Of a DNA stretch of 64,000 nucleotides, positions 1 through 40,409 are shown one piece after another. The notes beneath the pieces are model-generated. The model worked only from the letters and a program-made list of their open reading frames with translations. It ran no database searches and was not told where the DNA came from. The DNA is taken from contig OX381708.1 in NCBI GenBank assembly GCA_947462335.1, forward strand, positions 3,596,001 through 3,660,000. The letters run 5' to 3'. The translations under genes were made by a program, and so were the position numbers. Source of the DNA: Harmothoe impar. Lineage: Eukaryota; Annelida; Polychaeta; Phyllodocida; Polynoidae. Position 1 is the stretch's first letter. Every line of letters starts with the position of its first letter.

Positions 1-149
1 CATGACCCTTAAATGGTCAAGTACCAGCTACTAGAGGTGTGGTGTGTTAGGGTTATAAATCAGTTACTGTCAGTATAATGTCTACTTGTAGGCAGCAAAG
101 TTAACTGACTACCGCTAACCTTTAAGGGTTTCATAGTGCTTTAACGCAT

Positions 150-310
150 CATGCCCTTAGTCTTCATGATGCATGAATGCAGCCCATGAGAGTAACTCAC
201 CAGTGCTACATTGGTGCATCATGCTGACCCTATGGGGTTTGATATACTCTCGAAGGGTCGGCATGATGCAGCACTGCTGAGTTACTCACCAGGGCTGCAT
301 AGGTGCATTA
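150..310. repeat. GCATGATGCA hairpin module (copy A)
   Basis: Inverted GCATCATG/CATGATGC words alternate with CTGCATT/AATGCAG and GAGTTACTC. The duplicate in copy B is at 28590-28750. See the family finding. Confidence 0.65.
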
Positions 311-2384
311 TGACGGCAAATGTCACCTTTTAGCGACATGCCGTCCTTAAAGTGCTACCAGACTTTAGGAAGTTTCCGCTGCTGGATGTGGCTCTGGTGC
401 CTCCTGTACGAGGGGTGGGTGAGAAGAGCTACCAACCAGCAGTAAAGTTTTATATCCCACTGTTGAATGAGTGTTATAATTTCTCACTGATTTAATTGAC
501 TGTAAACTCCTGACAGCACTTTCCTGAGTCATCTCTCACAGAATCAATCTCTTTAGAACCATGACTGATATCCCTTAGTCAAGATGTCCAGTTCAATTGA
601 CACTGTTGATTGGCTGTTCTCTTCGTAAAGATCCGGTGCCTTGACGAGTCACTTAGAAACCAATATACCACTGGTTTGCGCATGTGGCCTTACAGATGTG
701 AGCACCTTGACTGTCTATGTGTCCTTGGTGGCAGTCGGTAGGAGGTAGATCCCTGCATGACACCCACCACTGGCTGCTCCCCCTGTGCGGTGCTGTAAGA
801 CCTTGTACACTACGTGCCTCCTTACACACTGAGCAGCCACACACTGCCCCTCCTTGAGACGCACGCGGTAGGTACCCCGCAGTAACCGGGGTGTGTGTGT
901 GTGTGGTGGTAGGTATGGGCAGGCCAAAATGATGAAAGGTGAGTTTTAGACGTTGGCACACACCAGAGAGGTGGCCTATGGTTTTACTGTACCATGTTAC
1001 TCAGACCGAGGCCACACACAAAAGTGTCATTTTTCTATACCATATTTTTGGAAATGCATTCGGTCGATGGATGACAACCGCCTCATTATCATTGCGATGG
1101 TTACCAAATAGTTGGTGCATGGAGTGAAGTAGTAGGGTCCCTTAGCCAAAAAATCGTTACCGGAGTGACAAAAGCGCCAAATTTCTCATAGGTGTTCATT
1201 TGGTCACAAAGATTCATTTTAGCCTAGGTTGCATCTTCAAAACAAATCGGTAACCATGGAAACAGCCAAAATCCAAGATGGCCGCCAAATTAGCCAAAAA
1301 CACATCTCCCATAGCATTAATATTGTCCCTATACAAATTTGAACTATGCCTATCCCCCCTAAAATGGGCCCTGGAAATCTAATGGTATTATTGGTTTGTT
1401 GCTAGGTTGAGCGGTTGCTTAGCAACAGCCATTCTAAATATGTATTTCCATAGTTACACAGACTTAATGATTACTTAGCTCAATTTCAATGATACCTACC
1501 CCCACTAAATTGCCCCCTAGGGTTTTAACGGTGGCATTCATTAGTTGCTAGGGCCAGCGGTTGCTTAGCAACAGCCATTCCAATTGTTTATTTGCATAGC
1601 AACACATGGTTTGCAGGTATATAGCTTAATTACAATGACACCTACCCCCACTAAATTGACTGCTAGGATTTTAACAGTGTTATTCATTGGTTGCTAGGGC
1701 CAGTGGTTGCTTAGCAACAGCCATTCCAATTGTTTATTTGCATAGCAACACATGGTTTGCAGGTATATAGCTCAATTTCAATGACACCTACCCCCACTAA
1801 ATTGACTGTTAGGATTTTAACAGTATTTTGCATTGGTTGCTAGGGCCATTGGTTGCTTAGCAACAGCCATTTCAAGTATTTATTTGCATAGCAACACCCA
1901 GTTTGCAGCTCAATTTCAATGACACCTATCCCCCTTAAAGGGAAATGCTACTTGTTCAGAGATTACTGAAATTCTATTGCTAGTGGCATAGGATTATATA
2001 ACTTTGATTCATGATCAAACAGAAAATGTTCATGATAGAGCCATTTGAACCAAAAAGTAGGCCTACCTTAATTATAGAATGAAATGAGAAAACAATATTT
2101 TTTCACATAACCTGTCACGGATAATTCCCTTCCTTTGCTATACTAACCAAACCTTGGGACTGTGTAATGTGCATTTCTACAAATATTTTTAAAGCAAACT
2201 AGGGGGTCACCGATGAAATGAGAAAGTTATGAATTTTTCGAAAATATATATTTTGTCTTAACCATTGGGTCCTATGGGTAACCAGGTGGTTAATAAATGC
2301 CATACATATTATGTATAATCTCCAAGTGGCAAATGAAATGGTGGATTAAGGAAAAGTAATATATTGGAATATGTATTGAACTAA

Positions 2385-2699
2385 GGGAGTGGTCATTTTT
2401 TAACAACAGGGGGGGTTGGTGGATTTTCGCGCGAGCGGGCCAAAAAATTTTTGGTCCCCCCCGGGAGGGGTCAAAATTTTTTTGGTCCCCCCCTCAGGCA
2501 AGTTGAAATTGAGCGCAGCCGACCCCTTTGAGCTATAGTAATGCACGGGCTTTTTCGCTAAAAAGGGGTGCAATTTTTTTGGTCCCCCCCTCAAGAGGGG
2601 TCCAAATTTTTTTGGTCCCCCCCTTCAAGGGTTCCAAATTTTTTTGGTCCCCCCCCAAATCCACCAACCCCCCCCTGTTGTTAAAAAATGACCACTCCC
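2385..2699. mobile_element. C-rich MITE, Harbinger-like (copy 1, nested)
   Basis: It has terminal inverted repeats GGGAGTGGTCATTTTTTAAC and complement, flanked by TAA on both sides (2382-2384 and 2700-2702). It is filled with poly-C blocks separated by AAATTTTTTTGGTC. The 3-bp TWA target duplication is that of PIF/Harbinger transposons. It is nested in the foldback element. Confidence 0.8.
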
Positions 2700-3059
2700 T
2701 AAAAGAAGAACTTCCATGACTTTCAATTCTTGCCACCAGGTTGCCTATGTGTAGGAACCCACATTTCCCTTTAAATTGACTATTGGCATTTTTATAGTAT
2801 CATTCCCATCTTGCTAGGGCCAGTATATGCCTAGCAACAACCATTTTATTGGTTAATTCCTTAAAAACACAGGTTTAGGTACTGCAGGGGTAGACAGTAA
2901 CTGTTGACCAGGCCTGTAGCTCTAGAAATCTATGGGCCCAGGCTTGAAACAGCAGGCCTGGAATAAATAGTTCACTTTTCTCACCCTTTTCTCTTTTTCC
3001 AACAACATAAAACATAATCATTGCTGTAGACCACCCAGAACTGGATGGTAATTCCTGAG

Positions 3060-3200
3060 GTAGTAATAACTCATCAGTGCTCTATTCAAGCATCATGCTA
3101 ATCCTTCGGGGTTGATACACTACCAAAGGGTAATCATGATGCACCAACGCAGCACCAGCACTAAAACTAAATGGTGCATTAATACACTATCACTGGTAGC
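3060..3200. repeat. GCATGATGCA hairpin-module repeat in the foldback core
   Basis: The module has AGCATCATGCTAATCCTTCG, GGGTTGATACACTACC and TAATCATGATGCACCAACGC. It is the same dispersed family as at 160-310 and elsewhere. Confidence 0.6.
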
Positions 3201-3328
3201 GCATTGATGCTTTTAACCCTAAACAGGTTAAGGGTGCCATTTCCTTGTCAGTGCTGGAATCAATGGCTACTTAAGGACTACCATTTCATTTCTCTGCTTA
3301 TTACTCTCCCTGCCTACACCCCATATAA

Positions 3329-3826
3329 TAGGGGAGCCAAGCGACCTAAATGTCAATATTTAACTTTGATCTGGTACAGCCTGCAATAGATGATATGACA
3401 GTTGGATTAGGGTAATTTAAGTATGCTTATTCCAAATCTGGTGTGTGTAGAATGATATCTAGGTCGGAACAAGGTCAAAAACAAGGTCAAAGTTCACAGT
3501 TTTAAGGACCTCTAACCTTGACCTTGCACCCTATCAATATCCACCATAGTCAGTCAGGTAATTGACCATATATATATAAGAATGGCTATGAAAGATGAAT
3601 AACACTCAGGTTCAGTATCTTCGCATTTGTCTCAAAGTATATGTACCCTTTAGAGGTCCTTAAAACCGTGACCTGACCTTGTTTTTGACCTTGTTCTGAC
3701 CTAGATATCATTCTACACATACCGTAAATGGAATCAGCACCCTCAAAATACCTTAGTTCACCATTGATACCACCTATTGCAAGCCGTACCAGGTCCTCTC
3801 CAAGATTCCAGCCTGGCTCCCCTATT
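3329..3826. mobile_element. Palindromic MITE nested in the foldback element
   Basis: The inverted ends are ATAGGGGAGCCA and TGGCTCCCCTAT. The arms also share the inverted stretch GATATCTAGGTC / ACAAGGTCAAAAACAAGGTC. It is about 500 bp with no coding capacity. Confidence 0.65.
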
Positions 3827-6800
3827 AATACCTCTCCCTTCCCCTACTTATCCCCTAACATTCTATTCTCTTTCTTTTAACTTTTCATTCTTCCCCATGC
3901 AGTCCTTTCACCTGCATATACCTCTAGCTCTCTGGGATTTTCATCTGTTGTAATATTGTAACTTCAAATGATTTTCCTCATTCAGTATCCTTATGCGCTT
4001 CAGAATTACCATTTCTCTCTCCTAGATTCTCAAAACCATTGAAACCACCAAAGGTCAAATTGTTTTGGTATGCAATATTTGACTTCTGCATATTCATTAA
4101 GAATCATCCTTGGGAAGCAAGCTCCCTGACATTGTACTATTTTGGTATTCTAAAAAGGATGGGAGGGGGCTTTGTTGCTAGGCTAGGTAGCCATTCATTT
4201 AGTTTAACATACATTTATAGAGGCTAAGTGGGAGCTGTGCTTGTTCCAGCAAAGTCCACTAAAGATATCTAATTGGGACAAGCCTGTCCAAGAATATGCC
4301 AATTAGGGACACATTACCAATTGTGTCATACCTTATCAATGATTTTCACCTGACCCTGAATCTTTTTATAGCAGATATAACTCTAAGCCCCTACATTTAT
4401 CTGTAGGAATCTGTTCAATGTAATATTTACCTTCTAAATATTTAAGATACAAGCTTCAGCAGCTTGTTACTAGTTGCTATAAGTATGGTAAACTAAAAAA
4501 TATTAGAATGCATCATAGTTGACACTGAAAGTCATTTGCTGATATTAATCACTGAAATAATGTATTCTCTTGGATCATACATGGTAGTTAGTGAGAATTT
4601 GTTGGGTTGCCAAGTTGGGTCTATGGAATATACCTCTATGTTGCTCACCTGTCTTGAATGATATGGCAGTTGGAGAAATGGCAGTTAGAGAAATAGTAAG
4701 GGAGATGCTAGTAGAGGGATAGATAGAGGTGTGGATAAAGCAATAAGCATGGGAAGGGAGAGGGTGGGCAAGCAGATTAATAGGTACACAAATAGGGAGG
4801 GGACATGAGAGGCAAGGAGATAGGCAAGGAAACAGAGAATGGTGGAGGGATAGATAAGCAGGTATTGCTAGGCAAAATAAAATATAGGCAGAGAAGGATA
4901 GGTAGGGAAATAAGCAGGGGAGAGGATATGTGCAGCTTCACAAATTCACAAACTATATTCCCTAAGTTAGCCTCCTTTGACCCCTATTTCCAGCTAACCA
5001 TGTAACTTACAAGCCTAAAGACATACTAATGTTGAAATTGATATGCTACAATTGGGTGGTATTGTTAAATTTTATTGTATGGTCAATTGTCATGGCATAA
5101 AAGAAGTCAAATACCTGTGTTGGATTATTTTTGGGAGTTCAATATCCAATTTACCTATGAATATCTATCATTGGTTGGCGATTGTAAATGCAAAGGGCAT
5201 TCTACTAGTAAGGCTGGTGATAACTCCACGTTTCTTCGGGAACTGGCTGAAACAATGACTTTGGTGCGGGAATTCTATATGTGGAGTGTAAAAGCGATGT
5301 TCTCTACTTTCTGGTTACTGAGGCAGCCATTCCCACATTTTAAACATGAGATATTTGTGTCGGTACTAGCAGAGTTCATTGCAGGACAGGAAACTATGAA
5401 TCACAGCTAGTAATTGCACCCTAAATCATAACTAGTTTGTGAAGTTTCTCGCAAATTAGAGGAATAAGCTAGATCTAGAGTTATAATCTAATAGAGAGAT
5501 TCCTTATAAAGGCATGTCGATGTACCAAATTGATGTTGTATTGCATTGAGAGGAAATGTGAAGTGAAACGTGCATTGATGGTCAGATCTTCCTCTCCCTT
5601 GTACCGTAGGAGTTTCCATAAACCCAGGGATGTGTCTCACACTGCTTTCAGATTATGGTGCTATTCAGCTATACATGTATTGCGATGAGCCGATGGTCTG
5701 CATCTTAAATCCCCAACCTCTCTATTTAAGCCCAGAGGTCTGGTCTTCGCTCAGCTCTGAATGCTACTGCAGGGGCACAAGGGTTTTGCCTTTAATACAG
5801 CGTAGGCTCATACCTGATCACTGGTGAGTGGTACATATAAAAATAACCATAGACCATTAGACAAGGTGTGTGTGGAGGGGGGGGGCTGTTGAGGTGTTAT
5901 AACAATGCTGAGCCAGGAAAGGTCTCACACCTAACCCAACCCCCCCCCCCCCCACATACAGAGCCACACTGTACAGTGTATGTAGTGGAAGAGTGGAAGG
6001 CCCTGGTCATTTAGGTCATTTCAAGGTCTTTTCTGAAGCAACATTTGGAAATACTTGTGTATAAGCCGTACTAGCGATCTGACTTGGGTACTAGTCGCGG
6101 CTTCTATGTGAGGTTTTACAGTATTTATTTTTAGTCAATTTTAGAATTAATCAATTAAAATCGCTGTTGCTAGGCATATACTGGCCCTAGTATTTAAGAT
6201 GGGAGTGGCACTATGCAAATGTCAATAGTCAATTTAAGGGGGGTAGGTGTCATTGAAATAGAGCTATGTACCTGTTAGCCATGTGTTGCTATGCAAATAA
6301 ATACTTGAAATGGCTGTTGCTCAGCAACAACTGGCCCTAGCAACCAATGAATAATACTGTTAAAATAGTAGCAGTCAATTTAGTGGGGGTAGGTGTCATT
6401 GAAATTGAGCTATATACCTGCAAACCCTGTGTTGCTATGCAAATAAACAAATGGAATGGCTGTTGCTAAGCAACCACTGGCCCTAGCAACCAATGGATAA
6501 CACTGGTAAAATCCTAGCAGTCAATTTAGTGGGGGTAGGTGTCATTGCAATTGAGCTATATACCTGCAAACCATGTGTTGCTATGCAAATAAACAATTGG
6601 AATGGCTGTTGCTAAGCAACAGCTGGCCCTAGCAACTAATGAATAACACTGTTAAAATCCTAGCAGCCAATTTAGTGGGGGTAGGTATCATTGAAATTGA
6701 GCTAAGTAATCATTAAGTCTGTGTAACTAAGGAAATACATATTTAGAATGGCTGTTGCTAAGCAACCGTTTAACCTAGCAACAAACCAATAACACCATTG

Positions 6801-7220
6801 GATTCCCAGGGCCCAATTTAGGGGCGGTAGGTATGGCTCAAATTTGTATAGGGACAATATTAATACTATGGGAGATGTGTTTTTGGCTAATTTGGCGGCC
6901 ATCTTGGATTTTGGCTGTTTCCATGGTTACCGATTTGTTTTGAAGATGCAACCTAGGCTAAAATGAATCTTTATGACCAAATGAACACCTATGAGAAATT
7001 TGGCGCTTTTGTCACTCCGGTAACGATATGCCCCAAATTTGAGGCTAAGGGACCTTACTAAAGGGTCTCCCTCCGCTTTAACTAATTTTCTCATTACACA
7101 TGTCTTCCAATGGTTTTCTTTTTCATGGTTGGTAAAGGAGGGGGTGGGAATTTTTCCCTGCCTCAGATATTTCTCAGATTTTTCTTCCCAATCCACCTTT
7201 CACCATGATATGTTTTCTTA

Positions 7221-7554
7221 GGGAGTGTTATTAATTACAGGGGGGTGGGTGGTGAGATTTCGCGCAGAGGCGCGAATTCTTTTACCCCCCCCCCTTCGAT
7301 AGCGCGTGGAATGTTTTGCGCCCCCCCCCCCCCCTCGCCGAAGGCGGTGAACAATTTTCGTCCACCCCCTTTGAACTATAGTAATGTGCGTTTTTTTGTG
7401 CTAAAAAGGGGTTAAATTTGTTACGCCTCCCCCCCCCCCTCAAGAGGGGTCAGAATTTTTTACACCCCCGCCCCTCCTCAGGAGAGGTCGGAAATTTATG
7501 CGCCCCCCCCCCAACCCACCACCCCCACACTGTAGCTAATAAATGAACACTCCC
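7221..7554. mobile_element. C-rich MITE, Harbinger-like (copy 2, duplicated)
   Basis: The ends are GGGAGTGTTATTAATTACAG and complement, with TTA on both sides (7218-7220 and 7555-7557). It is shared with copy B (29728-30042), so it is older than the copy A/B split. Confidence 0.75.
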
Positions 7555-7769
7555 TTAGTGGCCTGATTAAGGTGGGTGGGTTGAGTACAAAGGTTACCGG
7601 GGGCAGGCTGTGTGTAGTTTAGATCAGTCAATAGCCATGTGACAGGCGTCAACATTGGACCGTCTTACCGCTACTCACACACCCACTACTGTTAATGGTC
7701 CCCTCCTCTCTAACTGCCACCTGGGACTACTCACCTGGGTCTTAACTCTATAAGGACCACATGTCGCTA

Positions 7770-7960
7770 AAAGCCAACATTTGTCGTCATGATGCACCAA
7801 TGCAGCTCCAGCGAGTAACTTCCCAGTGCTGCATTGGTGCATCATGCCGACCCTTCGGGAGTGTGTCAACCCTGTAGGGTCAGCATAATGCATGAATGCA
7901 GCCCTGGTGAGTTACTCGCGAGGGCTGCATTCATGCATCATGCCGACAAAGGACGTAGCA
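7770..7960. repeat. GCATGATGCA hairpin modules
   Basis: There are three inverted modules (CATGATGCACCAATGCAGCT, GCATAATGCATGAATGCAGC and complements) around a GGGTTG-type spacer. The copy B counterpart is 30290-30480. Related words recur at 8500-8600 and 30950-31060. Confidence 0.6.
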
Positions 7961-8902
7961 CCCTAAGGCAGTATGCAGCCCTTTAAGGTTTAACCGGTAT
8001 TGTAGGCGCTCATTGTGTACTCATACTGGGGTTATTTAAAGGATTAACGCTGTAATCACTCTGGGTTAGTACAAAGAAACTTTACTTCTTCAAGTTCTCC
8101 ATTCCATCGGATTTATATAGCATTAAATACACATTTCAATTATTTGAGTAGCTCTTTGAGTAGTGGTCTTTTAATACCAGGACCATAACGTAGGACAATG
8201 AGTACTCAAATTATGCTGAGTCATCATGGAGTAGCCGTGTAATACGGACCTTAAGGTAGTAACACTTTTATAACTGAGCTCAGCAAGTGACAGGATCTTA
8301 GTGCATTTAAAGCATTTAAAACCAACATGGATTAAAGTGGCCAATCTCAAAAAAACTTGAAATGTTCAATTTGAGGCCCCTGAATAAATTTAGGTCCTTT
8401 ATAGTTAAGTACAGGTCTTCACAACATAGAAAACTTGAATTCAGGGAAAAAGCTTGGAAGACTTTAATCCCTGAACCGAGCTTGATGCCTCAAGACTTTT
8501 TATCATGATGCATGAATGCAGCGCTGACGAGTGACTTTGGAAGTGTATCAACTTGTGCGGTCAGCATGATGCATGAATGCAGCATTACTGATTGACTTGC
8601 CAGGCCCTGCCTTAACGTACTATGTGGCCCTTACAGGGTTACGGCATACGTTGGGACAGCCACCATGTACTTCCAGCACTAAGGTGCTAATGGCCGCTAG
8701 GGTGGCTAACAACCCGACTCACTACCGGAATTATAACCTCAAAGTCAAGTTGCTGACATTTTGCATCCAGTGAGATTCATTCCGCACTACACCAACAGTT
8801 CACGTCTCTGAGTGCCTCTTCCCCCCCGTCAGCTACCTGGGCCACATGGCAGTGCTATAAGTGGTGGCCGCATGCTCCGTAGATACGGCGCTATTAGCGC
8901 CA

Positions 8903-9218
8903 GGGAGTGCTCATTTTTTAACAACAGGGGGGGGGGGGGTGGTGAGATTTTGCATGGAGCGCGCTAATTTTTTCACACCCCCCCTAGAGGGGTCGAAATT
9001 ATTTACCCCCCCCCCCCCCCCGGCAGACCAAAAATTGTGCGCGTTCGCGCCTCTTTGCCCAGTGACACGCGGGCTTTTTCCCTCAATACAGGTTGAATTT
9101 TTTTTACCCCCCCCCAAGAGGGGTCTAAATTTTTTACCCCCCCCCGTTCAAGGGGTCCAAATTTTTTACCCCCCCCCCAAATCCACCCCCCCCCCGTTGT
9201 TAAAAAATCAGCACTCCC
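8903..9218. mobile_element. C-rich MITE, Harbinger-like (copy 3), absent from copy B
   Basis: The ends are GGGAGTGCTCATTTTTTAAC and complement; TAA follows on the right. Copy B at 31345-31360 reads straight through (GGCGCTAATGTGTGC), giving an empty site. The left flank carries a few extra bases, so the target duplication is imperfect. Confidence 0.75.
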
Positions 9219-10358
9219 TAATGTGTGCTCAAAACGTGCTAAGTCATCATCAAGTAGCCTTTTAATACAAGACTCACTCTTGATAACTCTAAGTGGGTTT
9301 AAACCCTTAGTACCTTAACCCTGTGTGTCCATGTGTATGGGTCTAGACAACTCAACTCACCATGACCACATGGGGCCTAGTGACAGGGAACATGGTCATA
9401 TCTCGAAGTTTACAGAGGCCATGCTGGACCTCACCTATATCAGCATTTGTCGTCACGAATGCAGCGTCAGTGAGTAGCCCGCGGGCATTACAGTGGTGCC
9501 AGCGCCTTGTACAGGTACAGCAAAACCTCCGTTACAAGTTTGAGAGAAAGAACTTTTGCTTATACAATGTAGTAAAAGTGCTTGATATTCGTTTATACTA
9601 TATTCCTATACATTTGTACATCTGGGAGGAATTCAGCATTTGGGGGGAGGAATTCAGCTTTAATGTATGAAATATGAACACCCAAAAGAAAAGTTTACAG
9701 TAGCAGTCAGGTTACTGTAAACTGGTGCGTAGTGTGGCAAGGCTGCCTCTAATCAGGACGTCCCCCACATCTACCCGCCCTAACACTGTTATGCTTCAGG
9801 CAGTGTAAGTGCACCATTAATCTTACCCCAGTCCTTCTATGGAGGCTCCCCGTGTAGGCTTCACAGACCCTGTACTGTCCAGACACATCCTAATCCATAC
9901 ATACTCAAATGGTCAGTCTACTAAATACCAACATAATACTTCTAGGTGTGAGTGAAGCCGTGTGTAAGCTGTTAAAGACCCAGTTTACATCAGGGTGGGG
10001 TTGGGTTAAAGCCTCCAGGTGTGGTTCATGAAGACCCCACTAGGTGGCAGCACCACCCGAGACACACACTCTGTACTAGATCCAACACCCATGTCCTCCT
10101 TGGTATAAATTTGTGTTATTCTAAACCAGTATACAGCTGTAGACGTTATTTATTTGTATATCATTGATATAGAAAACTTCGTCCCCTTGCTCTTAGAATT
10201 GTCACCTTGGAAAAAAATATTCTATATGAAAGTGTTTTAGTTTTCTTGATTTTAGTCAGAAGTGATTGAATGTTTAGAAATAGAGTATGAGTGTATGTGA
10301 TATACCGTGTGCATACAGCTTGTAATACGTGCATGGAGACTCTATGGAGACCAGACCA

Positions 10359-11616
10359 GACGTCATCAGCTGACCCAGACGTCGCCTGTCCCGCTGACGT
10401 CATCAGCTGACACAGACGACGTCTGTCTCTCTGACGTCATCAACTGACACAGACAACGTCTGTCTCGCTGACATCATCAACTGACACAGACAACGTCTGT
10501 CTCGCTGACGTCATCAACTGACACAGACGACGTCTGTCTCGCTGACGTCATCAACTGACACAGACGACGTCTGTCTCGCTGACGTCATCAGCTGACAGAC
10601 GTCGCCTGTCTTACTGACGTCACCAGCTGACACAGACACAGACGACGTCTGTCTCGCTGACGTCATCAGCTGACACAGACGACGTCTGTCTCGCTGACGT
10701 CATCAACTGACACAGATGACGTCTGTCCCGCTGACGTCATCAACTGACACAGACGACGTCTGTCTCGCTGACGTCATCAACTGACACAGACGATGTCTGT
10801 CCCGCTGACGTCATCAACTGACACAGACGACGTCTGTCCCGCTGACGTCATGAACTGACAGACGTCGCCTGTCTTACTGACGTCACCAGCTGACACAGAC
10901 GTCGCCTGTCTCGCTGATGTCATCAGCTGACACAGACGTCGCCTGTCTCGCTGACGTCATCAGCTGACACAGACGTCGCCTGTCTGGCTGACGTCGCCAG
11001 CTGACACAGACGTCGCCTGTCTCGCTGACGTCATCAGCTGACACAGACGTCGCCTGTCTCGCTGAGGCCTGTCTCTCTGACGTCGCCAGCTGACACAGAC
11101 GACGCCTGTCTCTCTGACGTCGCCAGCTGACACAGACGACGCCTGTCTCTCTGACGTCGCCAGCTGACACAGACGTCGTCTGTCTCGCTGACGTCCACAG
11201 CTGACACAGACGACGTCTGTCTCGCTGACGTCATCAGCTGACACAGACGTCGCCTGTCTCGCTGACGTCATCAGCTGACACAGACGTCGCCTGTCTGGCT
11301 GACGTCGCCAGCTGACACAGACGTCGCCTGTCTCGCTGACGTCATCAGCTGACACAGACGTCGCCTGTCTCGCTGAGGCCTGTCTCTCTGACGTCGCCAG
11401 CTGACACAGACGACGCCTGTCTCTCTGACGTCGCCAGCTGACACAGACGTCGTCTGTCTCTCTGACGTCACCAGCTGACACAGACGACGCCTGTCTCTCT
11501 GACGTCGCCAGCTGACACAGACGTCGTCTGTCTCGATGACGTCATCAGCTGACACAGACGTCGCCTGTCTCTCTGACGTCACCACCTGACACAGAAGTCG
11601 CCTGTCTCGCTGACGG
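10359..11616. repeat. 37-bp minisatellite with a CRE palindrome in each unit (copy A, ~33 units)
   Basis: The unit has TGACGTCAtcAGCTGACACA followed by GACGACGTCTGTCTCGC. Each unit carries TGACGTCA (CREB/ATF site) and CAGCTG (E-box). Two main unit types alternate (GACGACGTCTG and GACGTCGCCTG). The long minus-strand frames here are repeat translations, not genes. Confidence 0.9.
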
Positions 11617-12442
11617 TCAGTGACTGAGAGTCCACTACAAGAATCACCCGGTCAGTCCAGTCACTGATACATCAAAAACTTTTGTACATCAACGCTTGTA
11701 CAAAATACGGCTTTTGTTGCATCTACGACCAGCCTGCCCAGGCTTTATGGTGAATAATGGAAAGAAATAATTATCAAGTAATACATGATTATACATGAGA
11801 TGTCGGTACAAGATGGTAACGTCACAGATGATTCTTTACAAATTAAAATTTATTTTCTAAACTAAATATGCCGAAAATAGAGGTGAGTATTTGCTGCTGT
11901 GGATTGCCATGACCATCCGTGACGTCACCATGACCAAATTAAAAGTTGCTAAGATACCACCAGGTGCCGCACACACGTCACACGTCTACGTCACGTCTAC
12001 GTCATAACACGACACACACACACACAGGGCGCCATCTGGTAACACCCACACTGCTACATGGCTGTTCTACTGCTAAAACACGGGGGAGAGGTCAAAGAAT
12101 TTCACTAGTGGCATCATGTAAAATTGAAGAAATATTCTGTCGTTAAAATAATTTTCTTTCCATAATAAATTCAAAATGGGGCTGATATGGATATTACTAA
12201 TAATATAGCGGGTTTTTTTTCGTTAGAATAATTTCATATTAGATTGAATACATTTTACATTTCATAGTGGGCAGTTATAAATCGGGATAATTGTTGGAAT
12301 ATACGATTGTTTTAAAATAAAGTATTTAATTCAAAGAAAAAAGAACAAATAGTGGTGTGTATAGTGTGTTGTGTGTGCTACCAGGGGGCGCCCCGGGATG
12401 GTGTAGTGCCGGGGGCGTGCAGGGCCTGCCGCGTGCCTCTAC

Positions 12443-12653: not shown

Positions 12654-12814
12654 GGTGCCGGTCCTGTAGGTCCCGTCAGCACCTCACCATAGCCTCACCT
12701 GGGGGGAAAGGAATACAACAGTCAGCACAGAGCAGAGACAGGTTCAGGTTACAGATATAAATCACAACCACTGTGGGTGGATAAGGCCACAAAATATGTA
12801 CATGTTCAAGTATC

Positions 12815-12930
12815 CCGACTGACCCAATTTTTTTGGCCCTACCCTAATCTTTTTTTTTTGACTGAAATTATGAGGAAGGGGAGAAATTTCTCATGATCTT
12901 CTAAAAAAGATAGTTTAGGCCTAATGCCCC
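12815..12930. mobile_element. TTAGGCC-type element (copy A only)
   Basis: The sequence CAAGTATCCCGACTGACCCA, then a poly-T tract and TTTAGGCCTAATGCCCC, matches the ends of related elements at 15855-16110, 18560-19708 and 62568-62794. Copy B carries unrelated sequence here. Confidence 0.5.
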
Positions 12931-28200: not shown

Positions 28201-29727
28201 ACTGCAGTTAAAAGCGGCAACAACTACAGAGCACTTCAATGTGCTATGCCCTTTATTGTCATGATTTAGACAATACTATCGTCATGATGTATGAATGAAG
28301 CCCTGGTGAGTAACTCGTCAGGGCTTAATTCATGCATCACGCTGAGCCCACAAGGCTGATACACTCCCACTCTACCAGTAGATGGTCAGGGCTGCATCCA
28401 TGCCTCATGTTGACAAACAGCACGGCACATTAAAGCACTATGCCCCTTAAAAGGTCAAGTACCAGCTCCTAGAGGTGTGGTGTGTTCTGGGTTATAAATC
28501 AGTTAACGTCAGGATAATGTCTACCTGTAGGTAGTAAAGTTAACTGACTACCGCTAACCTTTAAGGGCTGTATAGTGCTTTAACGCATCATGCCTTTAGT
28601 CTTCATGATGCATGAATGCAGCCCATGAGAGTAACTCACCAGTACTGCATTCAAGCATCATGCTGACCCCATGGGGTTGATACACTTTCAAAGGGTCGGC
28701 ATGATGCAGCACTGCTCAGTTACTCACCAGGGCTGCATAGGAACATCATGACGGCAAATGTCACCTTTTAGCGACATGCCGTCCTTAAAGTGCAAACAGA
28801 CTTTAGGAAGTTTCCGTTGCTGGTGCCACCTGTACGAGGGTGGGTGAGAAGAGCTACCAACCAGCAGTAAAGTTTTATATCCCACTGTTGAATGAGTGTT
28901 ATAATTTCTCACTGATTTAATTGACTGTAAATTCCTGACAGCACTTTCCTGAGTCATCTCTCACAGAATCAATCTCTTTAGGACCATGACTGATATCCCT
29001 TAGTCAAGATGGCAGGCTCTATTGGATGACTGTTCTCTCAAGTAAAGATCCAGTGTCTTGACGAGGTGTCTCGCTTAGGAACCATTTTACCACTGGTTCC
29101 CTCCGATCACCTTATAGATGTGATCACCTTGACTGTCTATGTGTCCTTGGTGGCAGTCAGTAGGAGGTAGATCCCTGTGTGACACCCACCACTGGCTGCT
29201 ACCCCTGTGCGGTGCTGTAAGACCTTGTACACAAGTTGCCTCCTTACACACTGAGCAGCCACACACAGCCCCACCTTGAGACGCACGCTGTAGGTACCCC
29301 GCAGTAACCGGGCACTGTGTGTGTGTGTGTGGTGGTAGGTATGGGCAGGCCAAAATGACAAAAGGTGAGTTTTAGACCTTGGCACACACCAGGAAGGTGG
29401 CCTGTGATTTTGCTGTACCATGTTACTCAGACCGAGGCCACACAAGAAAAGTGTCATTTTCCTATACCATATTTTTGGAAATGCATTTGGTCGATGGATG
29501 ACAACCGCCTCATTATCTTTGCGATGGTTACCAAATAGTTTTGTTCTTCATAACAGAAATGCTGGTGCATGGATTGACCAGTCTCCCTCCGCTTTAACTA
29601 ATTTTCTCATGATTACAAATGTCTCGACGTTTTTTTTTTTCATGGTTGGTAAAGGAGGGGTGGGAATTTTTCCCTGCCTCAGATATTTCTCCGATTTTTC
29701 TTTCCGATCCACCTTTCACCATGATAT

Positions 29728-30042
29728 GGGAGTGTTATTAATTACAGGGGGGTGGGTGGTGGGATTTCGCGCGGAGGCGGCCGCCCGCCGCCCCCCCCCC
29801 CCCTTCGAGAGCGTGTGGAATATTTTGCGCCCCCCCTCGCCGAAGGTGGTGAAAATTTTTCATCCAACCCCCTTTGAACTATAGTAATGCGCGTTTTTTT
29901 TTTGCTAAAAAGGGGCTACATTTTTTACGCCCCCCCCCCCCCCCTCAAGAGGGGTCAGAATTTTTTACACCCCTGCCCCTCCTCAGGAGAGGTCGGAAAT
30001 TTTTTGCGCCCCCCCCCCTGTAACTAATAAATGAACACTCCC
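29728..30042. mobile_element. C-rich MITE, Harbinger-like (copy 5, duplicated)
   Basis: It starts GGGAGTGTTATTAATTACAG and ends with the complement followed by TTA. It is the partner of 7221-7554. Confidence 0.75.
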
Positions 30043-31979
30043 TTAGTGGCCTGATTAAGGTGGGTGGGTGGAGTACAAAGGTTACCGGGGGCGGTCTGTG
30101 TGTAGTTTAGATCAGTCAATAGCCATGTGACAGGCTTCAACATTGGGCCGTCTTACCGCTACTCACACACCCACTACTGTTAATGGTCCCCTCCTCTCTA
30201 ACTGCCACCTGGGACTACTCACCTGGCAGGTAACTCACCTGGCAGGTAACCCTATGAGGACCACATGTCGCTAAAAGCCAACATCTGTCGTCATGATGCA
30301 CCAATGCAGCCCCAGCGGGTAACTTCCCAGCACTGCATTGGTGCATCATGCCAACACTATGGCAGTGTGTATACTCTGTAAGGTCGGCATAATGCTTTAA
30401 TGCAGCGCTGGCGAGTTACTCGCGAGCGCTGCATTCATGCATCATGCCTACAAAGGACTAGAACCTTAAGGCACGATGCAGCCCTTAAAGGTTTAACTGG
30501 TATTGTAGGCGCTCATTGTGTACTCATACTGGCGTTATTTAAAGGATTAACGCTGTAATTACTCTGGGTTAGCACAAAGAAACTTTACTTCTTCAAGTTC
30601 TCCATTCCATCGGATTTAAATAGCATTAAATAAACATTTCAAGTAGCTCTTTGAGTAGTGGTCTTTAAATACCAGGACCATAACGTAGGACAATGAGTAC
30701 TCAAATTGTGCTGAGTCATCATGGAGTAGCCGTAATATGGATCTGAGCACAAGATATTAACAATTTTATAACTGAGCCCAGCAAGTGACAGGATCTTAGT
30801 GCATTTAAACCATTTAAGACCAACAGGGATGAAAAAAAAATTGAAATGTTCAAATTGAGGCCCCTGAATAAATTTAGGTCGTTTATAGCTAAAGTACAAG
30901 TCTTTGCAGCATAGAAAAGCTTGGAAACTTTCATCCCTGAAACAAGCATGATGCCTCAAGGCTTTTTGATGCATGAATGCAGCACTGGCGAGTGACTTTG
31001 GAAGTGTATCAACTTGTTCGGTCAGCATGATGCATGAATGCAGCACTAGTGAGTGACTGGCTAGGCCCTGCCTTAACGTACTATGTGGCCCTTAGCGGGT
31101 TATGGCATACGTTGGGACAGCCACTGTGTACTTCCAGCACTAAGGTGCTAATGGCCGCTGGGTGGCTAACAACCCGACTCACTACCGGAATTATAAACCT
31201 CAAAGTCAAGTTGCTGACATTTTGCATCCAGTGAGATTCATTTAGCACTAAACTCACAGTTCACATCTCTGAGTGCCTCCCCCGCCCCGTCAGCTACCTG
31301 GGCCACACAGCAGTGCTATAAGTGGTGGCCGCATGCTCCGTACATAAGGCGCTAATGTGTGCTCAAAACGTGCTGAGTCATCATCAAGTAGCCTTTTAAT
31401 ACAAGACTCACTCTTGATAACTCTAAGTGGGTTTAAACCCTTAATACCTTACCCCTGTGTGCCCATGTATACGGGTCTAGACAACTGAAGTCACCATGAC
31501 CACATGGACATGGCACCTAGTGACAGGGAACATGCTGGACCTCACCTATATCGCCATTTGTTTTCATGAATGCAGCGTGGGTCAGTAGCCCGCGGGCATT
31601 ACAGTGGTGCCAGCGCCTTGTAGAGGTATCGCAAAACCTCAGTTATAAGCTGAATGTTAGTTTGAGAGAGAATATGTGGCTTATAAGAAAAGCATTTGAA
31701 ATTTGTTTTTACTATATTCCTATACATCAAAATCTCGCCTATAAGCTGAATGTGAGTTTTGGGGAGGAATTCAGCTTTAATATATGAAATAAACAGACTC
31801 TAATCAGGACGTCCCCACATCTCTAACACTAGAACAGTGCCTCAAGTAGCATTAGCGTACACATTTAATCCTCCCCAAGTCCCCCTACGGAGGCTCCCCG
31901 TGTAGGCTTCACAGACCCTGTACCGTCCAGACACATCCTAATCCATACTCAAACCGTCAGTCTACTAAATAGCAACACG

Positions 31980-33085
31980 AGGATGCAATTGTTAAGGAAT
32001 TGCACAGCATAGCTGTGGTGACCTGCTTCATTCTAAGATTGAGGGGTGATGATTAAGTTCAGTTGATGCATGAATGAATTGCTGTTTAGTTGAAGCAGTG
32101 TCCTGTTCTTAAAGGGTTAGCATACAGAACTAATGATGCATAAATGAAGCGCTGTCAAGTTGAAGCAGTGTGTCGTTCTTAAAGGGTTAGTGTACAGAAG
32201 TCACGATGCATACGTGAAGTGCTGATCAGTTCAAGCAGTGTGCTGTCCTTAAAGAGTTAGTGTGCAGAAAGCATGATGCATAAATGAATTGCCATTTAGT
32301 GAAGATAGTATACTGTCCTCAAAGGGTTAGCATACAGAAGTCATGATGTATAAATCAATTGCTGTTTATTTGAAGCAGTGCCCTGTCCTTAAAGGGTTAG
32401 CATACAGAATTCATGATGCATAAGTGAAGTGTTGTTCAGTTCAAGCAGTGTGCCATCCTTAAACGGTTAGTGCACAGAAGGCATGATGCATAAATGTATC
32501 AACATTTAGGTGAATCAGTTTGCTGTCCTTAATGGGTAAGCATACAGAAGTCATGATGTATAAGCGAAGTGCTCTTCTGTTGAAGCAGTTTGCTGTCCTT
32601 AAAGGGTTAGTGAACAAAAGGCATGATTCATAAATGTATTGCCGTTTAGTTGAAGCAGTGGGCTGTCATTAAAGGGTAAGAATACAGAAGTCATGATGCA
32701 CAGATGAAGTGCTGTTCAGTTAAATCAGTTTGCTGTCCGTAAAGGTTAAGCATACGGAAGTCATAATGTGTAAGTGAAGTGCTCTTTTGTTGAGGCAGTG
32801 TGCCATCCTTAAAGGGTTAAATAGAGAAGTCATGATGCATAAATGAATTACTGTTTAGTTGAAGCAGTGTGTCGTTCTTAAAGGGTTAGCATACAGAAGT
32901 CATGATGCATAAATGAATTACTGTTTAGTTGAAGCAGTGTCCTGTTCTTAAAGGGTTAGAGTACAGAAGTCATGATGCGTAAGTGAAGTGCTCTTCTGTT
33001 AAAGTAATGGGACATCCTTAAAGGGTTAGAATAGAGAAGACATGATGCATAAGGGTAAGTGTACAGAAGGTATGATGTATAAATG
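31980..33085. repeat. ~70-bp tandem array built from the CATGATGCA module (copy B only, ~15 units)
   Basis: The unit has CAGAAGTCATGATGCATAAA, TGAATTGCTGTTTAGTTGAA, GCAGTGTGCTGTCCTTAAAG, GGTTAGCATA. Units drift a few percent. It is absent from the matching place in copy A (about 9950). Confidence 0.88.
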
Positions 33086-33239
33086 AGTTTACGAATGCAT
33101 TCACTCCTGCCAGCCGGGAACGAGTCCACTGCAAAATAACCTAAAATTTGCGAATACAGCCAGACCGGTGCTACGTCATGGCGCCAAGTGAGAGCTGATA
33201 ATTACCCCCACCCGCCCTGTACAGGGGCTCTGGATTGGG

Positions 33240-33440
33240 GGTCCCCATGTCGAATGTCGATCTTAAAAAATGGCCATGTCACATGTCAATGTCGCTTAAT
33301 AATGCTCATATCCCATGTCGATTTTAAGTATTGCTCATGTCGCCTGTCACTATGTTTTTGGGCCTCATGTCATATGTCACTAGGTCTCATGTCAATTGTC
33401 GATTATAAGAAATGGTCATGTCGCCATGTCGAATTTGGTG
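33240..33440. repeat. CATGTCG-rich insertion (copy B only), inverted relative of 16575-16795
   Basis: It carries CCCCATGTCGAATGTCGAT, AAAAAATGGCCATGTCACAT and similar words. It is absent from the matching place in copy A. Confidence 0.5.
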
Positions 33441-34208
33441 GTCCACAGACTCCACACCCATTGTACACAGTACCGCTTCCCGTGGCCAGGCCACAACGTG
33501 TGAACAACAGGTGAGGTTATGACAGCTTGTGGGAAGGAGTGGAGCGGGCGCTACAGGCATCAACTGGTGTGATATAATCAACACCTATGAGGATTCAAGT
33601 GCTACTACTAACTGACTCTGCCAGAAACGCCAGTTGGAGCCTGTGGAGGCTACGTCAAGGTCCGCTGCCCCTCCATACTAATCTAATGTTCGCGGATCAG
33701 TGTTGTAGCATAGGACGCGCTCGTTCTCTCTTTGGGCTTACGGGCACTCCGTGTCCCACTGTATGACCTGGATGGCTTCGCCAGCAGGTCAATAAGGTGT
33801 GAGTACCGCCGTGTGTAGGCTGTCAAAGACCCAGTTTACATCAGGGTGGGGTTGGGTTAAAGCCTCCAGGTGTGGTTTATGAAGACCCCACTAGGTGGCA
33901 GCACCACCCCAGACACACAGTGTGTACTAGTTACAACACCCATGTCCTTTTTGGTATAAATCTGTGTCATTCTAAACCAGTATACAACTGTAGACATTAT
34001 TAATTTGTATATTATTGATGTAGTAAACTTCGTCCCCTTGCTCTTAGAATTCTGTCACCTTGGAAAAACAATTCTATATGAAAGTGTTTTAGTTTTTTTG
34101 ATTTTAGTCAGAAATGTTTAGAAATAGAGTATGAGTGTATCATGTGATATCCCGGTGCATACAGCTTGTAATACGTGCATGGAGACTACATCAAGACCAG
34201 ACCAGAAA

Positions 34209-34733
34209 AGTTGACGTCATCAACTTACGCGGACGACGTCTGTCCCGCTGACGTCATCAGCTGACACAGACGTCGCCTGCCTCGCTGACGTCACCAGCTG
34301 ACACAGACGTCGCCTGTCTCGCTGACGTCACCAGCTGACACAGACGTCGCCTGTCTCGCTGACGTCACCAGCTGACACAGACGTCGCCTGTCTCGCTGAC
34401 GTCACCAGCTGACACAGACGTCGCCTGTCTCGCTGACGTCACCAGCTGACACAGACGTCGCCTGTCTCGCTGACGTCACCAGCTGACACAGACGTCGCCT
34501 GTCTCGCTGACGTCACCAGCTGACACAGACGTCGCCTGTCTCGCTGACGTCACCAGCTGACACAGACGTCGCCTGTCTCGCTGACGTCACCACTTGACAC
34601 AGACGTCGCCTGTCTCGCTGACGTCACCACTTGACACAGACGTCGCCTGTCCCGCTGACGTCACCAGCTGACACAGACGTCGCCTGTCCCGCTGACGTCA
34701 CCAGCTGACACAGACGTCGCCTGACTCGCTGCC
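34209..34733. repeat. 37-bp CRE minisatellite (copy B, ~14 units)
   Basis: This is the same array as at 10.4 kb with fewer and more uniform units (TGACGTCACCAGCTGACACA, GACGTCGCCTGTCTCGC). It sits about 0.8 kb into LCA5 intron 1. Confidence 0.9.
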
Positions 34734-35561
34734 GGTCAGTGACTGAGAGTCCACTACAAGAATCACCCGGTCAGCCCAGTCACCAATACATCAAAAACAC
34801 AACTTTTGTACATCAACGCTTGTACAAAATACGGCTTTTGTTGTATCTACGACCAGCCTGCCCAGGCTTTATGGTGAATAATGGAAAGAAATAATTATCA
34901 AGTAATACATGATTATACATCAGATGTCGGTACAAGATGGTGACGTCACAGATGATTCTTTAAAATTGAAATTTATTTTCTAAACTAAATATGCTGAAAA
35001 GAGGGAGAGTTTTAGCTGCTGTGGATCCCCATGACCATCTGTGACGTCACCATGACCAAATTAAAAGTTGCTAGGATACCACCAGGTGCCGCACACACGT
35101 CACACGTCTATGTCACGTCTACGTCATAACACGACACACACACACACAGGGCGCCATCTGGTAACACTCACACTGCTACATGGCTGTTCTACTGATAAAA
35201 CATGGGGGAGAGGTCAAACAATGTCACTACTGGCATCATGTAAAAATGAAAAAAATATTCTGTCGTTAAAATAATTTTCTTTCCGTAATGAATTCAAAAT
35301 GGGGCTGATATGGATATTACTAATAATATAAATTTTTTTTCCGTTAGAATAATTTCATATTAGATTGAATACATTTTACATTTCATAGTGGGCAGTTATG
35401 AATCGGGATAATTATTGGAATATACGATTGTTTTAAAATAAAGTATTCAATTCAAAGGAAAAGACAAAAAGTGCTGTGTATAGTGTGTGGTGTGTGCTAC
35501 CAGAGGGCGCCCGGTGGTGGTGTAGTGCCGGGGGCGTGCAGGGCCTGCCGCGTGCCTCTAC

Positions 35562-35772
35562 CTGGGGGCCTACTCCGCGTGGTGGAGGCGGCATGAGTAG
35601 CTGAGGTGATGAATGTCTTACTCTTTGCCGTCTTGCCGGTGGCCGCCCGTGAGTCGTCGGTGTAGAAGTCATCGTCTGTGTAGTCGGAGTAGTCGTCCCG
35701 TGAGTCGTAGCTGCGACTCCTGCTGCGACTGCGGCTGCTGCTGCGGCTGCGGCTTCGTGTCCCGGTCGGCAT
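35562..35772 (-). CDS. LCA5: LCA5 homologue, first coding exon (copy B)
   Basis: The start codon is at 35772. It opens MPTGTRSRSRSSSRSRSRSR, followed by an acidic tyrosine-rich stretch (DDYSDYTDDDFYTDD) and a basic/Thr-rich tail. The frame stays open to a donor (CAG|GTAGAG) at 35561. The exon is 211 nt and ends one base into a codon, exactly the phase needed by the acceptor at 20663 (G+CC gives Ala). The acidic tyrosine run resembles the YSYLSDFE segment near the N-terminus of vertebrate lebercilin. Copy A at 12443-12653 encodes the same first 65 residues with silent changes and differs only in the last five (RSRPP here, GSKPT there). That pattern indicates selection on the protein. Because it lies upstream of exons 2-4 on the transcribed strand, copy B is the functional first exon in this assembly. 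Confidence 0.8.
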
Positions 35773-36631
35773 GGTGCCGGTCCTGTAGGTCCCGTCAGCA
35801 CCTCACCATAGCCTCACCTACAGGAGACAACAGTACAGTACAGTGGTAGTTCATAGCCTCACCTGTGGGGAAAGGAACACAACACATGTAGCACAGAGCA
35901 GAGAAAGGTTCAGTTTACACATAAATGACACCCACTCTGGTTGGATATGACCCGGGTGTACCATAGATTATCGCGTATAAGCCGTGGTCAGATTGCCAGT
36001 GCAGCTTATAGGATGTGTACAAAGTGGGGGTGTGGCATATACACAAGGTTTTAGATGTATGCTATAGTACTTAAGAGTAGTCGCTATAATCAGACCCTCT
36101 GTGCAGCCTATAGCATTTGTCAAAGTTAGGAGCGCGGCTTATACGTAAAAATTCATCCACCAGTCCTGGTGTAACCCTTCAACAACTGCTGCGTGGTTTA
36201 TTATTTGCCAGCCTGATGCACCAATGCAGCTCTGGTGAGTAGCTTGTCAGAGCTGCATTCATCATGCATCACGCAGACTGAATGACACAGTGTATTAAGG
36301 GGGTAACAAAACACCCTACAATACGTCACCTGTGGCAATGGCTGGTACAATGTATGTCACCAGTAGGAGCTCAATGTGTGCCCCCCTTATAACGAGGAGG
36401 GGGTAATTTGTAATAAATAGTACCAGAGTCTGTTTCCCCTATTGACAATCGATACTACCTCTGTGTGATAACTGCCATAAGCCTGGTCCTGCCGCCTCTC
36501 TGCAGGCGGCCTCAGCAGCGATACTTAACTAGTAATGACGGTAATCACAGCACCTGGGGCTAAACGTGTCACATGGACCTCCCACCGTCATCTACTCAGT
36601 AACGAGCAACTCACTCTCCACTCACTACTCA

Positions 36632-37755
36632 AGGTATGTGTGTGGAGAGTGAGTTACTCAGGGTAACTCAGGGTGTGTGTATGGAGAGTGAGTTACTCAA
36701 GGTGTGTGTATGGAGAGTGAGTAACTCAGGGTGTGTGTATGGAGAGTGAGTTAGTCAGGGTATGTGTATGGAGAGTGAGTTACTCAAGGTGTGTGTATGG
36801 AGAGTGAGTTACTCAGGGTATGTGTATGGAGAGTGAGTAACGCAGGGAATGTGTATGGAGAGTGAGTTACTCAGGGTATGTGTATGGAGAGTGAGTAACT
36901 CAGGGTGTGTGTGTGGAGAGTGAGTTACTCAGGGTTTGTGTATGGAGAGTGAGTTAGTCAGGGTGTGTGTATGGAGAGTGAGTTGCTCAGGTTATGTGTA
37001 TGGAGAGTGAGTTACTCAAGGTTTTTGTATGGAGAGTGAGTAACTCAGGGTATGTGTATGGAGAGTGAGTTACTCAGGGTGTGTGTATGGAGAGTGAGTT
37101 AGTCAGGGTGTGTGTATGGTGAGTGAGTTACTCAGGGTGTGTGTATGGAGAGTGAGTAACTCAGGGTATGTGTATGGAGAGTGAGTTACTCAGGGTGTGT
37201 GTATGGAGAGTGAGTTACTCAGGGTGTGTGTATGGAGAGTGAGTTAGTCAGGGTGTGTGTATGGAGAGTGAGTTAGTCAGGGTGTGTGTATGGAGAGTGA
37301 GTTACTCAGGGTGTGTGTATGGAGAGTGAGTTACTCAAGGTGTGTGTATGGAGAGTGAGTTACTCAGGGTGTGTGTATGGAGAGTGAGTAACTCAGGGTG
37401 TGTGTATGGAGAGTGAGTTAGTCAAGGTTTGTGTATGGAGAGTGGGTTACTCAGGGTGTGTGTATGGAGAGTGAGTAACTCAAGGTGTGTGTATGGAGAG
37501 TGAGTTACTCAGGGTGTGTGTATGGAGAGTGAGTTACTCAGGGTGTGTGTATGGAGAGTGAGTTACTCAAGGTGTGTGTATGGAGAGTGAGTTACTCAGG
37601 GTGTGTGTATGGAGAGTGAGTAACTCAGGGTGTGTGTATGGAGAGTGAGTTACTCAAGGTGTGTGTATGGAGAGTGAGTTACTCAGGGTGTGTGTATGGA
37701 GAGTGAGTAACTCAGGGTGTGTGAATGGAGAGTGAGTTACTCAAGGTTTGTTTTT
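36632..37755. repeat. 29-bp minisatellite (copy B, ~38 units)
   Basis: It is the same unit as at 13.4 kb. The total unit number is close to copy A although the variant order differs (more GTAACTCAGG and CTCAAGG units here). Confidence 0.92.
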
Positions 37756-38798
37756 GGAGGTATGAGCTACTCATGTGGCGCCACCTAGTATCATGTGGCG
37801 CCACCTGGTAACATGAGCTGCTCATGTCACTCTCCAAGCAGAGCTGGGTGTAGAGGCTGTAAGTACAGGTGTCATGCTGCACATGTGGTGTGAGAGTGTG
37901 TGATGTCATCTACACACAGGTAGAACCAACCTGTACCTGGTAGGTGTGTGGTGGGGGGGGGGGGGGGGGTAGAGGCAGGAGGTGTACACCTTGTGTGGGG
38001 GAACCTGGGGAGGCCGACACAGGGTCTGGCTAATGAGTTCTCTGTGGGGGTCTTATAACTGTGGTCAGTGGTTAAATTGAGGGATCAGAAGCCCCTTCCT
38101 ATAGTGTATTTAATTGCAGTGCTACTATTACAAACCCCTTCCTCTGCTCAAGTTGTATGGCCGATAATGACGCCACCAAAGGCATGAAGCTTAATTCCTC
38201 CTGTAGGTGTACCCATTAATTAAGGTCCTAATGCCCTCACAGTCAGGCGCTCGCCAAGTCCTCCCAGACAAGGTCTAGTCACGTATAGGCATGTGTGTGC
38301 GGGGGGAGGGGGGGCTCAGTGGTAAATAAGTATCATTAAGCCGGGTACGTACAGAGTATGGGTGCCGGTATCGGTGCCACACTCAGTACGAAGCTGTCTG
38401 TACCCATCTCTAGCTGCTCACTTAATCAATGACACCAGCTACTAGGTACCGTGTCGGTCAGCCAATATGTGTGACTATTGGCTGCATAGGCTGCAGTACT
38501 GTAGGGCCAAAAAAAGTGTCCAATCCCGACCCACCCTACGTTTTTGGGGCCAACCCTATTTTTTTTTTGTATTTTTTTGTGACAACTAAAATTTTACCAA
38601 ATAACTAAGCGGCAAAAACAATAGATCTACCTACCACCCCTTCGTCTTTTTTTGGATATGTTATGTATACTTGGGAAAAAAAGTTTAAATCCGAGAATAA
38701 CTCTGTACCGTAATCAGCATTCTGCTCAGCCCCTGCAGCCCCAGCCTCCACTACTGCTGTGAGTACTGGACATGGATCTACACAAAATGTAAACAAAC

Positions 38799-38927
38799 AT
38801 GTCTAAACACGGTGCAGTCACCATGGTGTCGTGCTGCAGTATTGTCCTGATGTTGTCTATTTGTGGATGTGGTACACAATGCTACACCCGGTCTAGTATC
38901 CTGCCACACATGGAGCAGGACAGGTGA
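38799..38927 (+). CDS. Short conserved open frame, copy B (uncertain)
   Basis: It is the counterpart of 15699-15827 (MSKHGAVTMV, then SCCSIVLMLSICGCG). It has the same length and the same possible donor. The family was not recognised. Confidence 0.15.
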   Translation: MSKHGAVTMVSCCSIVLMLSICGCGTQCYTRSSILPHMEQDR

Positions 38928-38959
38928 CCGACTCAGTGATAAACCACTCATTACTTCAT

Positions 38960-39200
38960 AAAGGCCTAAAAAAATGTTTGTTCTGGTAACATGGCCAAAA
39001 ACCACTAGAGTCGGTAGGTCGTTTTTTGTTTCTTTTACCTATTTCTTTTTTTGTAAAAAAAATGTGATTTTTGTAATAAAACCCCAAAAATGTCATAAAT
39101 TTTCTCAAAAATTAAAAAAATGTCCAAGAAAAATTAGAGTCGGCCCTCAAAACGTCGGGTTAGTCGGAATAGCGGAACACAATTTTTTTTTTAGGCCTAA
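38960..39200. mobile_element. TTAGGCC-type MITE (duplicated, copy B)
   Basis: The ends AGGCCTAAAAAAATGTTTGT and AATTTTTTTTTTAGGCCT are the same as at 15855-16110. There is no coding content; the 76-codon frame across it is an artefact. Confidence 0.65.
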
Positions 39201-39534
39201 CTGATGCATCAAGTGTCATCATGAAGCACAAAGTAACTTGCCGGTGCGGTGCTAATCCCTTCAGGCTTAGAGCATGATGCACCAATAGCAAGCAACTTAA
39301 CGACTGGCACTGCATTAGACAATTTGGTGCATCATGTCCAACTATGATGCATAAATGCAGCACAGGATAGTGTGTGCTGTATTCACTGCTTCAGGCTGCC
39401 AAAGGGCATGATACATTATTCTGCCGTCCTTAACGGGTTGAATTATATAATATTTTATTGATCCCTAGTTGTTCCACCCTCTTGTTGCACACCGTCTGTA
39501 TGGCTGCAGGCCATGGTGTAACGTGTTATGTGTT

Positions 39535-39861
39535 GGATAGACTACACCTGGACACGGTTCTTCCATATAGGGCCTAGTCAGGACTGGAGCTGGTTGCGGC
39601 AGCCTGCACTGATAAGAGCTGATAAGACTGTTACTAGCCTGTCCCTGTTTGTCCCTTATTTGTACCCATAGTGGGATGTCTTATCAGTGGGTATAACCGC
39701 AACCAGCAAAATATAAAATGGCGGACCCACAGGGTATAGCTCCAGATTCCTATACCCACTTCCCCCGCCACTGCCCCACAGGGTTAAGATGAGGTGTCAT
39801 ACACTGAGTGACCGGTGGGCAGTGGGTATATGGAAGAACCCTGGCCAGGTGTTGTCTATCT
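39535..39861. mobile_element. MITE with GATAGACNACACCTGG ends (copy B only)
   Basis: The inverted ends are GATAGACTACACCTGG, CGGTTCTTCCATATA on the left, and TATATGGAAGAACCCTGG, CCAGGTGTTGTCTATC on the right. It is missing at the same place in copy A. Confidence 0.7.
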
Positions 39862-40137
39862 GACTTAACCCTCGGGTACGTGAAATAACCTTGGTGCGAA
39901 TCCTTTGTCTTAGCCGTCCACCGTGGGTCAACTGTGATATATGCCTCATATACTATACCTCATGTCTCTGTGGTGATTGTTTGACGTACATCACCATATA
40001 AGGGGTATATCAGATAAAGCTGATACCGTTATCGTGTAGCTGCAGATTACACCCAGTGTACGCGGCATGTATACAGGTAATATCCTCCCCCCACACACCT
40101 GTATACAAACCCCAGACATACCTCTAAGGGAGTGCTC

Positions 40138-40409
40138 ATTTTTTAACAACAGGGGGGGGGGGGGGGTGGTGAGATTTCGCGCAGAGGGCGCGAATTTTTT
40201 TCACCCACCCCTCTAGAGGGGTCGACATTTTTTAACCCCCCCCCCTGGCAGGCCGAAAATCGCGCGCTTTGTTGCATAGTAACGCGCGGGCTTTTCCCCT
40301 CAAAACAGGTGAATTTTTTTGCCCCCCCCCCCCCCCAAGGGGTCTGAATTTTTTAACCCCCCCCCCAAATCCACCCCCCCCCCCCCGTTGTTAAAAAATG
40401 AGCACTCCC
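40138..40409. mobile_element. C-rich MITE, Harbinger-like (copy 6)
   Basis: The ends are GGGAGTGCTCATTTTTTAAC and complement, with TAA on both sides (40135-40137 and 40410-40412). It is the partner of 17129-17296 and marks the right edge of the visible copy A/B similarity. Confidence 0.82.

Follow-up and report, generated by a model that had tools for sequence, protein, structure and literature searches.

Two collinear copies at an assembly gap

We analysed a window of 64,000 nucleotides (contig OX381708.1, positions 3,596,001 to 3,660,000 of the forward strand) in which what appears to be the 5′ region of the cilia gene LCA5, which encodes lebercilin, occurs twice, with an assembly gap between the two copies. 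Coordinates below are positions in this window, and a strand is given for those features that have one. The gap (17297–17496) is the sole run of N in the window and marks a contig join; its length of 200 N is the default gap of the scaffolder YaHS. BLASTN of 1–17296 against 17497–64000 revealed copy A (1–17296), which forms the right end of the left contig, and its allele-like counterpart, copy B (about 28439–40288), collinear on the plus strand and in direct orientation. The left end of the right contig (17497–28438) lies between the gap and copy B; it is without a second copy in the window and carries LCA5 exons 2–4. The chain, found among repeat matches, extends from A 2/B 28440 to A 17296/B 40288. 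This bears out the collinearity described in the first-pass annotation and moves the end of copy B, placed there at 40274, to about 40288.

Similarity between the copies reaches bases 1–2 of the window at one end and the last base before the gap at the other. The junction with the gap falls within a miniature inverted-repeat transposable element (MITE) that is common to both copies and has the same flank in each (A 17129–17296, where it is cut by the gap; B 40128–40409). The final base of copy A (17296) pairs with B 40288, and B continues through the same MITE and beyond; copy A thus meets the gap where similarity would continue, as had been noted at first pass. Because copy A is still similar to B where it reaches the window edge on one side and the gap on the other, it is censored on both sides. 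The length of 12–17 kb first given for the segment therefore stands as a lower bound and fails as a full size, the left end of A being the window edge.

In a self-comparison of the whole window from which A–B pairs were excluded (E ≤ 1e-15, length ≥ 60), no second collinear chain was found, and the remaining matches were dispersed, tandem or inverted repeats. Chance or repeat-driven similarity between A and B was rejected, since their chain is collinear across A and the other self-matches are repeats of these kinds. No junction between the copies was seen in continuous sequence by BLASTN and end alignment; A ends at the window edge on one side and, on the other, at the 200-N gap, in which a junction could lie.

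LCA5 exons run from copy B to the gap

LCA5 exons 2 (20422–20663), 3 (18363–18504) and 4 (17618–17766, the last before the gap) lie on the minus strand of the right contig. The lebercilin domain PF15619 was found in all three, with profile positions 1–39, 47–91 and 94–140 of 193, respectively. Exon 3 scored over the curated cutoff (E 4.6e-10), and exons 2 (E 4.2e-8) and 4 (E 6.6e-8), each taken singly, fell 0.9 bit and 1.5 bits below it. Each exon was also recovered by tblastn with clam lebercilin, and together they correspond to amino acids 78–236 of the 748 of the clam protein. The lebercilin protein matches comprised three clam lebercilin-like proteins (44–46%), one unlabelled protein (43%), and proteins from meerkat (37%) and fly (28%); no amphioxus protein was among the matches of this search, which requires shared exact words.

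The putative coding part of exon 1 is present on the minus strand of both copies (A 12443–12653; B 35562–35772) and falls outside the domain. Its donor in copy A was placed by consensus, with two other same-phase donors possible. The exon is provisionally assigned to LCA5 by reading phase and because it resembles, on visual inspection, the acidic N-terminal part of the clam protein. Exons 1–4 of the right contig add up to 744 nt and form one open frame of 248 codons with AG/GT borders.

The LCA5 exons run leftward from copy B and stop at the gap. A tblastn search of the window with amino acids 237–748 of clam lebercilin gave no credible match, the best having E 5.9 at 24.7 kb. Since exons 2–4 match amino acids 78–236 and no credible match lies beyond, exon 1 of copy A sits past exon 4, and tblastn detected no exon 5 between them.

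Divergence and insertions that distinguish the copies

Over seven well-aligned blocks, 469 of 5988 sites differed between A and B (7.8%) and 67 gap events were counted, so that single-nucleotide polymorphisms (SNPs) and gap events together amounted to 9.0 per 100 aligned bases. For this count three of ten first-tried blocks (16–21% different) were dropped, two were trimmed and minisatellite arrays were omitted; all ten blocks gave 724 differences in 7541 sites (9.6%) and 87 gap openings. Divergence in 27 alignment segments of 200 bp had a median of 6.5% and a range of 2.5–21%. The first-pass annotation had put substitutions at about 5%, a value too low for the copies as a whole; it does fit the sequence immediately on the gene side of LCA5 exon 1, where 44 of 821 sites differ.

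Insertions and minisatellites account for most of the length difference between A (17.3 kb) and B (11.85 kb). Among them is a 5.93-kb element found only in A (1130–7060, borders set by eye), whose 828-bp terminal inverted repeats (1130–1939 and 6233–7060) are 92% identical and contain 146-bp tandem units. AAG flanks the element on both sides (1127–1129 and 7061–7063) and was taken, on visual inspection, for a 3-bp target duplication; at the corresponding site, near 29579, B is uninterrupted and has CAG. The 146-bp units are also arrayed at 18799–19444 in LCA5 intron 2 (~70% alike), and this array may have spread with the A-only element.

Copy A also carries a MITE of ~316 bp (8903–9218; ends GGGAGTGCTC... 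and ...CACTCCC) that is not in B near 31355. Nine unexplained extra bases at its left leave the target duplication not clean. Of the MITE family (~320 bp, with internal G/C runs) the window contains at least seven members, full or partial, at 2382–2702, 7220–7555, 8903–9218, 17129–17296, 40128–40409, 43668–43986 and 59330–59658, and the ends were GGGAGTGCTC in all three copies read.

Copy B has a block of ~1.8 kb of its own (31978–33794), which holds 14 units of a 70-bp minisatellite. A 37-bp minisatellite is present in both copies at different lengths, ~1.26 kb in A (10357–11615) and 0.52 kb or 14.1 units in B (34212–34731). The earlier statement that the copies differ by whole mobile elements thus holds for the 5.93-kb element and the MITE, the rest being minisatellite or unclassified sequence. 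The presence or absence of insertions and the minisatellite lengths are compatible with A and B being alleles, and they are nonspecific in that any diverged duplicate would also fit.

Coding constraint in the LCA5 exons

Codons 1–61 of exon 1 differ between A and B by 4 nucleotide changes in 3 codons, with 0 amino-acid changes. The simulated probability of 0 changes in 61 codons was 0.0009 if both copies were neutral and 0.025 if one was. As a constraint test exon 1 alone is weak and was set aside: the stop at codon 61 was chosen post hoc, the donor is uncertain and three changes follow at codons 66–70. For exons 1–4 of the right contig, the probability that 744 nt would stay intact under one-copy neutral decay at the observed divergence was 0.0035 when all gap events were included and 0.008 when only those outside homopolymers were (4000 simulations each). 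The intact exons make an old dead duplicate unlikely; they do not weigh against unequal crossover between diverged alleles, provided that it was recent.

Origin of the two copies

The arrangement is very probably a heterotype (haplotypic) false duplication at the contig join, and thus most likely an ordinary assembly error and not a new duplication. The individual would be heterozygous for strongly diverged alleles of the LCA5 5′ region. One allele would be represented by the left contig, which ends within the shared region at 17296, upstream of LCA5, and the other by the right contig, which starts inside LCA5 intron 4, 10.9 kb before the visible shared part. The scaffolder would then have put one contig after the other, separated by a 200-N gap, without removing the overlap. 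The true locus would hold a single LCA5 gene, with the SH3BGR-family gene at 43–47 kb transcribed away from it. By inference, A and B are alleles from a single individual, and both the counterpart of 17497–28438 and the remainder of LCA5 lie left of base 1. Two haplotypes in series, as suggested at first pass, is the best-supported reading, short of proof, because A is still homologous at the gap, the right contig starts in intron 4, tblastn with a clam protein detected no later exons in the window and the exons are intact.

The same order of parts would result from a tandem duplication whose junction falls in the gap, and that reading also predicts exons 2–4 left of base 1. It is unlikely that the duplication is real, possibly polymorphic, and that LCA5 has a second promoter and first exon together with a second, truncated gene that shows 248 codons here. 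We consider it quite unlikely that two diverged haplotypes recently underwent unequal crossover and so produced this layout, with the junction in the gap, a left copy comprising the whole of LCA5 from exon 1 of A and a right copy left as a truncated gene (exons 1–4) beside the SH3BGR-family gene. Copies formed in this way would from the outset show allele-level divergence, differ in their insertions and have intact exons, and true duplications also coincide with gaps; however, the junction must coincide with the contig break, an extra rearrangement is needed, and the window shows no junction sequence.

If the LCA5 5′ region had been duplicated in tandem long ago, with the copies diverging in place by 7–8% and a dead partial gene left over, this would account for collinear copies in direct orientation and for the three amino-acid changes toward the end of exon 1. 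Such an old duplication is nevertheless very improbable, as the four right-hand exons are open with AG/GT borders, a state expected under decay with a probability of 0.0035–0.008. Equally hard to credit is a scaffolding misplacement, in which the left contig came from elsewhere as a stray haplotig or a dispersed paralogue: the join is indeed a 200-N gap, but A and B agree in block order and share a MITE along with its flank, as one locus predicts.

Several observations weigh against haplotypes in series. Divergence exceeds 18% in 2 of the 27 segments, and the heterozygosity of amphioxus in the part of PMC12862219 available, 3.2–4.2%, is below the 7.8% found here. Exon 1 is without a database match of its own. 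Its codons 66–70 carry three amino-acid changes, and over all 70 codons the probability of at most 3 changed was 0.04 with both copies neutral and 0.42 with one neutral. Furthermore, the negative result for later exons comes from tblastn with two clam-like proteins, which diverged exons may escape.

At face value, the scaffold gains a false partial LCA5 gene and the real LCA5 is broken. If haplotypes in series is the correct account, the locus is an example of two alleles left serially at a contig join, and the copies sample local allelic variation in the form of SNPs, a 5.9-kb element that is present or absent, and minisatellite lengths. The locus needs checking and merging before the assembly serves gene counts or duplication surveys.

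Comparison with reported false duplications

The gap separates the duplicated pair on one scaffold, and a gap between copies is among the marks of false duplications listed in the accessible part of PMC9516828, together with half depth, discordant pairs and 1-copy k-mers. Cases in the same excerpt, such as ZBTB11 in an older zebra finch assembly, resemble the present one in that part of a gene is duplicated in an adjacent position on the same scaffold, a gap separates the copies and the gene model is broken. The comparison is limited in that the median divergence of 6.5% here greatly exceeds the 0.22–0.95% heterozygosity of the table in that paper, and one of the four listed marks was examined here.

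Two contigs with overlapping ends were also joined in the case described in an extract of PMC12675260, there by Hi-C, and gaps were likewise given as 200 N. That case differs in that it concerns an inbred maize line, is not necessarily haplotypic and was settled by optical maps. Gaps are 200 N in the section seen of PMC12134992 as well, and both of these papers mention YaHS. In a YaHS-scaffolded assembly of Branchiostoma lanceolatum, 22 haplotypic duplications were fixed by curation (PMC11907188, in excerpt).

A degree of divergence close to that seen here comes from amphioxus, whose haplotypes, in the portion of PMC2632668 available, differ by 8.6% (SNP and indel) at the VCBP2/5 cluster and by 6–7% genome-wide. 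The VCBP2/5 cluster shares with the present locus its level of difference (8.6% versus 9.0%), large indels that stem from mobile elements and repeats, palindromes and trouble in assembly. It is, however, a different locus, and the 8.6% figure is relevant only if the animal is amphioxus.

Neighbouring genes and other features

To the right of copy B, exons of an SH3BGR-family gene lie on the plus strand, one at 43251, recognised by pattern only, and one at 47146–47331 with a match to PF04908 (E 5.9e-16). A search for protein relatives of SH3BGR gave no candidate. The gene, at 43–47 kb, is divergent from LCA5. Human LCA5 and SH3BGRL2 are likewise head-to-head neighbours at 6q14.1, and the pairing of LCA5 with an SH3BGR-family gene may be ancient. 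The available text of PMC9276112 places LCA5 at 6q14.1 and mentions SH3BGRL2. Copy B has the SH3BGR-family neighbour that we would expect, and copy A ends before reaching such a gene.

A UPRTase-like exon was seen at 62.4 kb, within 61602–62561 on the minus strand (PF14681, E 1.2e-5, 1.6 bits below the curated cutoff), and the same interval and strand hold another open stretch that resembles an exon and has no Pfam match. The exons of SH3BGR and UPRT stood out in an exon scan based on codon composition. Scans of the window for tRNAs and for Rfam families (gathering threshold) gave 0 matches.

Directly right of copy B lie two inverted arms of 540 bp (40625–41164 and 41315–41854) that are 100% identical and separated by a 150-bp spacer. 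Each arm contains an inverted pair of 157 bp (92%). The structure (40625–41854) could be a very young palindrome, a foldback element or an assembly effect.

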